A model generated the notes under the pieces. The model was not told where the DNA came from and did not search any database. It worked only from the letters and a program-made list of their open reading frames with translations. Below, one piece after another: positions 23,481 to 35,819 of a DNA stretch of 35,819 nt. Location: positions 1-35,819 of the forward strand of contig CAIQLG010000047.1 in assembly GCA_903872565.1 (NCBI GenBank). Reading direction: 5' to 3'. This stretch comes from an uncultured Lentisphaerota bacterium. GTDB taxonomy: Bacteria > Verrucomicrobiota > Lentisphaeria > Victivallales > GWF2-50-93. Both the position numbers and the translations under genes were made by a program. The stretch's first letter is position 1. Every line of letters starts with the position of its first letter.

Positions 23481-23562
23481 ACCACTATCCTTGGAAACTT
23501 TGTTCAAGGCTTTGTCTTTTTCTGGTAATTCCAATTCCATGTCAAATTGATTTTATAAAATA

Positions 23563-23616
23563 GGTAGGGACGCCTCGCCGAGGCGTCCGCGGCGGTCTCG
23601 GCGAGACCGCCCTACC
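23563..23616. repeat. GGTAGGG...CCCTACC-bordered double hairpin
   Basis: GGTAGGGACGCCTCGCCGAGGCGTCCGCGGCGGTCTCGGCGAGACCGCCCTACC: 7 bp terminal inverted repeat enclosing GACGCCTCG/CGAGGCGTC and GGCGGTCTCG/CGAGACCGCC. Confidence 0.85.
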
Positions 23617-23820
23617 AAAGCCCCTGCGAAGCCGATTAAAATTATGCCATTTGGATATAACATTTAAAATATCAATTTGACTTTTATTTAGAATAAGTAC
23701 AAGAAAAAAACAGACAAAGCCACTGGTCAACTCAAATACCATAATATTTTAGGGAAATTTGGGAATTGATTTCTTTCTATAAGTCATGACTCAGAGCAGA
23801 TTCCGCTGTATGTGAAAAAA

Positions 23821-32164: not shown

Positions 32165-32944
32165 ATGGACAAGGAAAAGGAAAGAAGACTGCTTTCGCCC
32201 GAAAGGGAGCAGGCGATACTGGACGAACTTGAAAAGGGGCCGCATCCCATAGGCGACCTCTCGGTCCTTCTCCGGGTCTCCGAGGCCACAGTGAGAAGAG
32301 ACCTGCTGTCACTTGAGAAAAAAGGACGCATCCGCAGGGTGCATGGCGGCGCAGTAAGGGTGGCTCCTCCACCAGATGAACCTGTCTTTGAGGAAAAGGA
32401 GTCAATAAGAAGTTCCGAAAAGGAGAAAATCGCACGTCGAGCCCTGTCAGAAATAGAGGATGGCGACACGGTCTTTCTCGACGGCGGAAGCACGGCTCTC
32501 TCCCTTGCTAGACTTCTTCCGGCCAGAAAGAACCTGACTGTCGTCACAAATTCCCTCATGGCCGCTTCCGAACTTTCATCCGGGCATAACAGCCTTATCG
32601 TTGTAGGAGGCAGATTCAGGCCTCTCAGCAGGACTCTTGTCGGCGCACTCACCGCAAAGACATTGGAGTGCCTGCATTTCGACAAGGCGTTCGTCGGAAC
32701 CATGGGATTCACCGCCGATGCCGGCATTTCCACCACGGATCCCGACGAGGCGTTCACCAAGGAGCTTGTAATAAGACGGTCGGAAAAGGTCTTTCTTATT
32801 GCCGACAGCTCGAAGCTTGGTGTGGCATCGTTTTCCGCGAGCGGTAACATCTCGGACATTGATTTCATCATAACTGATCCGGCTGTCTCGGGGAATTTTG
32901 TGAAACAGCTCAGGAAGAAAGGCGTGAAAGTGATAAAGGCATAG
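32165..32944 (+). CDS. DeoR/GlpR family transcriptional regulator
   Basis: PEREQAILDELEKGPHPIGDLSVLLRVSEATVRRDLLSLEKKGRIRRVHGGAVRV, EDGDTVFLDGGSTALSLARLL, LTVVTNSL, VFLIADSSKLG. Confidence 0.94.
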   Translation: MDKEKERRLLSPEREQAILDELEKGPHPIGDLSVLLRVSEATVRRDLLSLEKKGRIRRVHGGAVRVAPPPDEPVFEEKESIRSSEKEKIARRALSEIEDGDTVFLDGGSTALSLARLLPARKNLTVVTNSLMAASELSSGHNSLIVVGGRFRPLSRTLVGALTAKTLECLHFDKAFVGTMGFTADAGISTTDPDEAFTKELVIRRSEKVFLIADSSKLGVASFSASGNISDIDFIITDPAVSGNFVKQLRKKGVKVIKA

Positions 32945-32958
32945 CAGTATAATCATTA

Positions 32959-32988
32959 TTAACCACAAAGACACAGAGACACAAAAGG
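32959..32988 (+). repeat. Left inverted repeat flanking the GxxExxY gene
   Basis: TTAACCACAAAGACACAGAGACACAAAAGG; near-perfect reverse complement of 33263..33291. Confidence 0.92.
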
Positions 32989-32997
32989 ATTTTAATT

Positions 32998-33225
32998 ATG
33001 CAAAATGGATACGCACCAATACCTGATGAAATAAATGTAATGTCAAAAGTTATTATCGATGGGGCATTTAAGGTCCATAAAGCATTAGGGCCTGCCCTTC
33101 TCGAATCGGTATATGAAATATGTCTGTGTCATGAATTGCAAAAATCAGGATTAAAAGTAAGACGACAGGTTAATGTCCCTGTCATTTATGACAATATGAG
33201 ATTTGATGCCGGATTCCGTTATTAA
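32998..33225 (+). pseudogene. GxxExxY family protein, internally deleted/truncated
   Basis: INVMSKVIIDGAFKVHKALGPALLESVYEICLCHELQKSGLKVRRQVNVPVIYDNMRFDAGFRY*, then a GxxExxY-like C-terminal tail (V)IKKGIKRLVL* in another frame to 33252. Confidence 0.82.
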
Positions 33226-33262
33226 AAAGGGTATTAAAAGATTAGTATTATAAATTTTAGTA

Positions 33263-33291
33263 CCTCTGTGTCTTTGTGTCTTTGTGGTTAA
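33263..33291 (-). repeat. Right inverted repeat flanking the GxxExxY gene
   Basis: CCTCTGTGTCTTTGTGTCTTTGTGGTTAA; reverse complement TTAACCACAAAGACACAAAGACACAGAGG. Confidence 0.92.
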
Positions 33292-33322
33292 TTTAAAACA
33301 TATATTGAAAGGAAGAATCAAA

Positions 33323-35626: not shown

Positions 35627-35630
35627 GCTC

Positions 35631-35656
35631 GAAACTCGAATTTCGAAATTCGAAAC
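35631..35656. repeat. TTCGAA-rich palindromic sequence just after the E1 stop codon
   Basis: GAAACTCGAATTTCGAAATTCGAAAC. Core CGAATTTCGAAATTCG (35637-35652) is a perfect 16 bp palindrome. Confidence 0.75.
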
Positions 35657-35819
35657 AAGCACGAATTATGAATAAATAGACTGGGGTATCTCCTTGACTA
35701 AAGTACCCCCTACGGCTTGTGTTTTTCATGCTTGTTACGCAGGCCTTTTGAGATGGAACGGTACGTTGCCGGTGGGGTTCGCACAGAGTTCTCGATAAGA
35801 CGCTGGAACAAGAGTCCCC

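Follow-up and report, generated by a model that had tools for sequence, protein, structure and literature searches.

In REPIN/RAYT systems (REPtron, TIRtron; TnpA-REP), a small nuclease/transposase gene is flanked by inverted palindromic repeats, gene-less repeat doublets form dispersed intergenic hairpins, and repeat type tracks protein type (PMC3116915, PMC8266576, PMC3733652); RAYTs are reported to behave as stable, housekeeping-like genes (PMC8266576). The Coxiella 23S rRNA intervening sequence (IVS) has a 28-bp stem formed by terminal inverted repeats and an S23/IVP open reading frame (ORF), and has been termed a selfish element (PMC4990558). Here we analyse a unit in contig CAIQLG010000047.1 of an uncultured Lentisphaerota bacterium (35,819 nt; "the window" denotes this whole stretch), in which inverted arms built of short iterons enclose the remnant of a gene of GxxExxY, a widespread family without known function. 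Comparison with other loci reveals that, across many phyla, GxxExxY genes lie between such repeats and travel together with these, and that the arm-gene-arm arrangement is very probably a discrete inserting unit.

GxxExxY units resemble REPIN/RAYT systems in having dispersed, gene-less inverted doublets related to the gene flanks. They differ in the protein, which is a predicted PD-(D/E)XK nuclease whereas RAYTs are HUH enzymes with a catalytic tyrosine; in the repeats, which are CRCNNAN iterons without GTAG rather than GTAG plus a palindrome; and in copy number, several copies per genome being common (maximum 17). Like 23S rRNA IVSs, they contain one small ORF between complementary ends, and PF05635 genes in the genomes studied here are likewise iteron-armed, but the GxxExxY units differ in protein family and arm grammar and, at the loci read, do not lie within an rRNA gene. 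With miniature inverted-repeat transposable elements (MITEs) and DDE insertion sequences they have in common inverted ends, gene-less derivatives, and internally deleted copies such as the one in the window; they differ in that no DDE transposase and no target-site duplication (TSD) was found. We found no published description of such an element in the open full-text literature (subscription papers and preprints were outside the scope of the search), and six arm strings had no match in open full-text papers. The name GxxExxY itself occurs in two of 5.39 million such papers, at least one of which uses it only incidentally.

A decayed GxxExxY unit between DeoR and E1

The unit and its parts, in window coordinates, are as follows.

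32958..33292, no strand assigned: whole inserted unit, 335 nt, between the DeoR regulator gene (stop 32942-32944) and the E1 dehydrogenase gene (start 33323)
32958..32997, plus strand: left arm, with iterons CACAAAG-A-CACAGAG-A-CACAAAA and TTAAC in front; within arm pair I1
32964..32986, plus strand: left-arm iteron core, three near-identical 7-mers at 8 bp spacing
32998..33225, plus strand: N-terminal remnant of the GxxExxY gene, 75 aa, matching the TIGR04256 and PF13366 profiles
33218..33253, plus strand: C-terminal remnant VIKKGIKRLVL*, out of frame, the family C-terminus directly past the ORF stop
33253..33292, minus strand: right arm, inverted, with iteron core 33264-33286

The 40-nt arms are 83% complementary across a spacer of 255 nt and form the top short-range inverted repeat of the window (score 26; next best 18), above the highest score (18) obtained in five dinucleotide shuffles of the window. 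A detector of triple CRCnnA units finds these two arms only in the 35.8 kb, with 0 hits in the reversed control. The left-arm 23-mer at 32963-32985 has two more exact copies in the genome (contigs C204 and C341) and six more with 1-2 mismatches, the right arm among them. The left arm starts 13 nt past the DeoR stop, and 30 nt separate the right arm from the E1 start (MGNYYSD...). Our measurements agree with an initial annotation of the sequence, which had described an inverted repeat bracketing a small ORF, placed it between DeoR and E1 with its right arm ~30 bp before E1, and seen no transposase; we also found no transposase ORF within the unit.

The same annotation assigned the enclosed ORF to the correct family but overlooked that the gene is broken. 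Specifically, the ORF matches TIGR04256 (E 1.2e-16, 61.1 bits, cut-off 35) and PF13366 (E 6.9e-17, 62.3 bits, cut-off 22) but covers only the N-terminal half or so of each profile (positions 3-61 of 116). Full-length homologues have ~46 extra residues between the two remnants, including D67, E77, K79, Q91, and Y95, indicating that ~140 nt have been deleted from the window gene; an intact unit is estimated at ~475 nt (335 nt plus the deleted part). The window copy is without the D, ExK, and QxxxY motifs that full-length homologues have, so that its PD-(D/E)XK set is incomplete, and it therefore cannot encode an active nuclease. The window segment is thus a decayed, non-autonomous copy, for which movement is possible in trans only, because the catalytic half is lost. 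The genome contains ten GxxExxY copies, and the other nine span essentially the whole profile.

In the window, 381 nt separate the end of the DeoR match from the start of E1, versus ~19-121 nt with nothing between in most relatives that keep the pair, and the gap minus the unit is 43 nt, like that of the relatives. Since DeoR and E1 are adjacent without the unit in these relatives, the window unit is an insertion, at a site where the relatives are too diverged for base-by-base reading of the empty joint. The gap holds 224 nt of unrelated sequence in genome G006, ~470 nt of other repeats in G004, and a 23S_rRNA_IVP gene in G007. A different GxxExxY unit, with ACAGGAT arms, lies directly downstream of E1 in G003, G005, and G007.

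Inverted arms and hairpins at other loci

Nearly all of 47 GxxExxY copies from this genome and its relatives have locus-specific inverted arms at a distance of at most 350 bp (median inverted-repeat score ~22, versus 13 in a cross-pair control). Among 78 further loci, mostly of Bacteroidota but also of Acidobacteriota, Chloroflexota, Planctomycetota, Verrucomicrobiota, one cyanobacterium, and one archaeon, 82% have an inverted repeat scoring at least 18 within 250 bp, a figure that includes some coding or low-complexity repeats without iteron arms (e.g. L102, L116, L119, L131; wider flanks); the corresponding value for 259 other ORFs from the same loci is 10%. The genome scan for the family used a 5-sequence alignment, a 17-sequence one being too diverse.

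The arms start with (TTAA)CCRC and contain about three CRCNNAN iterations, 8-12 bp apart. Arm types vary by locus (CACGAAA, CACAGACT, CGCGAAT, CACTAAT, ACAGGAT, and others), the left arm matching the right. At non-syntenic loci, arm similarity tracks protein identity (Spearman 0.41; 0 of 500 label permutations), a correlation that shows co-inheritance and is compatible with, though no proof of, recognition of the arms by the protein. Units that encode similar proteins but lie at unrelated loci are homologous in nucleotide sequence only as far as the arm tips (left edge for L026/L044, right edge for L034/L056, both edges for L058/L061). The recurrence of arms around the family's genes, in many phyla and at loci that are unrelated, together with the unit-free relatives at DeoR-E1, supports mobilisation as a cassette, which the initial annotation had proposed.

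Two loci of different layout were also seen (L018, G000:C581; L016, G000:C341), in which the gene lies between two complete hairpins that form long direct repeats (scores 235 and 98). A third (L009, G000:C450 ~11085) has no evident GxxExxY ORF, and its window-type arms appear to surround what is left of another small gene.

Arms also occur without a gene. Those of the window type form a 100-bp hairpin on contig C341 of this genome, with others on C323 and C455, and genomes G003, G005, G006, and G007 contain dispersed ~140-nt hairpins (~8-28 matches per genome) whose arms are those of the L058/L061 gene. A sample of 1.25 Mb from six genomes, partly selected for hairpins, yielded 162 triple-unit arms, versus 7 when it was reversed as a control. 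Of the 55 facing arm pairs, 52 were gene-less; gene-less hairpins outnumber genes. The density of a two-unit motif averages 4.0 per Mb in relatives with the gene versus 0.64 in those without (p 0.014), with no such difference in the reversed control. In orthologous gaps of G005, G006, and G007, hairpins have been gained and lost, at an identity (77-85%) too low for exact joints to be read. These hairpins account for a class of scattered intergenic repeats (CCACAGAG..., CCGCAAAG..., CCACGAAA...) that are liable to be misread as coding sequence.

An intergenic site flanked by two conserved Flavobacterium genes, tracked across 121 genomes, occurs in several states. A GxxExxY unit with CGCAAGG arms is present in at least seven species; in eight close ones, with flanks 83-90% identical, the site contains a short hairpin without a gene, whose arms are CACGAAGG/CACAAAGG; G195 has a hairpin of a third arm type; more distant species have further gene-less hairpins; and in G106, G206, and G159 the site is empty, with 57-67 nt between the anchors. 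Unit and hairpins are therefore alternative fillings of one gap. The persistence of the gene at this site by vertical descent over several species recalls the stable, housekeeping-like behaviour reported for RAYTs (PMC8266576).

A parallel is provided by 23S_rRNA_IVP (TIGR02436) genes (L340-L367), which are common in these genomes (up to 14 matches per genome) and lie outside rRNA genes at the loci read. Inverted arms scoring at least 18 were found at 75% of 28 such genes, with an iteron period of 7-8 bp; IVP (S23) genes, having iteron arms of their own, may form a second element class in parallel. CRCnnR units are present in 81 of 100 GxxExxY arms versus 1 of 21 IVP arms. Arm grammar therefore goes with the cargo family, which supports specificity between arm and protein. 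In the window itself, past the E1 stop, CTCGAAACTCGAATTTCGAAATTCGAAACAAGCACGAATTATGAAT at 35627-35680 resembles the arm that precedes an IVP-type gene in the corresponding position of G006 (L160) and is probably the leftover arm of an IVP unit.

The encoded protein and a proposed mechanism

An AlphaFold2 model of the GxxExxY protein (pLDDT 96) has as its best PDB matches SSO0001 (Cas4-like) and lambda-type exonucleases. The protein has in common with these the fold and the motif set E, D, ExK, QxxxY, which is nearly invariant across the family, and differs from them in consisting of one domain of 125 aa and in its link to inverted iteron arms. By predicted fold and motifs, it is a RecB/Cas4-type PD-(D/E)XK nuclease. 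Few forks of the protein tree are resolved; phyla are mixed in it, which is compatible with transfer and no proof of it. Carriage by phages or plasmids was rejected, as searches with one query protein each gave 0 matches in 50,697 phage records and 8 in 72,556 plasmids, and 2.9 million viral contigs yielded 5 loci. The GxxExxY relatives on viral contigs L152, L153, and L155 have another kind of inverted repeat, AAAATTT-rich, with scores of 19-60.

By analogy with REPtrons, we lean towards regarding the unit as a REPtron-like miniature element in which a PD-(D/E)XK nuclease replaces the HUH transposase, the window copy being dead. In such an element, the nuclease would recognise its own arms, either as CRCNNAN units (three or four, spaced by about a helical turn) or as the hairpin that they form in single strands, and would cut close to the ends of the arms or exactly there. 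Host repair would then join the hairpin, released or copied, at another place, leaving no TSD. The arms would spread together with the gene and also by themselves, as hairpins on which the nuclease acts in trans, much as RAYTs probably serve REPINs. Recognition and cutting of the arms by the nuclease, and the joining step, are what we infer from this analogy and from the correlations above; whether the encoded nuclease may in this way act on the arms and drive their spread we consider evenly balanced. The broader proposal, that the GxxExxY family provides the enzyme that mobilises a hitherto undescribed class of TSD-free miniature elements in many bacterial phyla and an archaeon, is more tentative and falls a little short of that balance. 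If the nuclease does move the hairpins, bacteria would possess a mobile element that depends on no DDE, HUH, or serine/tyrosine recombinase. The link between arms, hairpins, and insertion polymorphism gives the family a testable role and names its likely substrate.

Several observations weigh against a nuclease-driven element. Neither excision nor movement has been observed; PD-(D/E)XK enzymes hydrolyse DNA, and strand joining is not among their known activities. The unrelated IVP genes, which encode four-helix-bundle proteins, also bear inverted iteron arms, and arms therefore need not require a nuclease. Genomes G040 and G044 have modest arm counts and no GxxExxY gene. The gene at the Flavobacterium site has been inherited over many species, indicating that the unit there is not highly active. 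TSDs, for which the initial annotation had suggested looking, were absent beyond palindromic TTAA: direct repeats flanking the arms are about as frequent as chance predicts (non-palindromic flanking 4-mers, 8 observed versus 8.6 expected), and the enriched 4-mers are palindromic only, mainly TTAA, and belong to the inverted repeat itself, a test that leaves room for short or eroded TSDs. Finally, archaeon G083 (L206-L220) has three gene-less MITE families of ~150-240 bp, each carrying a GxxExxY-type hairpin mid-element. We rejected these hairpins as self-spreading, since they lie inside MITEs with their own terminal inverted repeats and TSDs (8, 8, and ~17 bp), and did not count them as evidence for hairpin mobility.

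Alternative explanations

The alternative that survives best, although we consider it unlikely, is that the arms are ends for an unlinked transposase or for host repair and that the GxxExxY gene is a passenger in a MITE-like cassette. The majority of gene-less hairpins, the genomes with arms and no gene, the IVP genes with their own kind of arms, and the archaeal hairpins carried by MITEs with 8-bp TSDs would all fit a passenger gene. The units, however, have no TSD, their iteron arms are unlike ordinary terminal inverted repeats, and both the tie of arm grammar to cargo (81/100 versus 1/21) and that of arm sequence to GxxExxY lineage argue against a passenger.

Still less probable is a role of the arms in RNA, the second possibility raised by the initial annotation: the transcript ends would pair, as they do in 23S rRNA intervening sequences, and the long stem would serve to protect, process, or terminate the transcript. 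Pairing is possible, as the arms lie directly outside the start and stop codons; the units occupy short intergenic gaps; and the Coxiella IVS has a comparable terminal stem (PMC4990558). RNA function alone leaves unaccounted for the ORF-less hairpins, the end of homology at the arm tips, and presence and absence between species, and the window unit has no Rfam match at or above the family cut-off, with a single sub-threshold one. An RNA stem could nevertheless be an additional effect beside mobility. Inverted repeats that are coincidental or ancestral (bidirectional terminators, for instance) and adjoin an ordinary gene passed on by vertical descent would agree with the descent of the Flavobacterium copy over several species but are highly improbable given the control ORFs, the shuffles, the unit-free relatives of the window locus, and the differing hairpin types at one site.

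Apart from the GxxExxY unit, the window contains at 23512-23710 a compact palindrome, GGTAGGGACGCCTCGCCGAGGCGTCCG..., within a longer inverted repeat, which looks like another intergenic repeat family.
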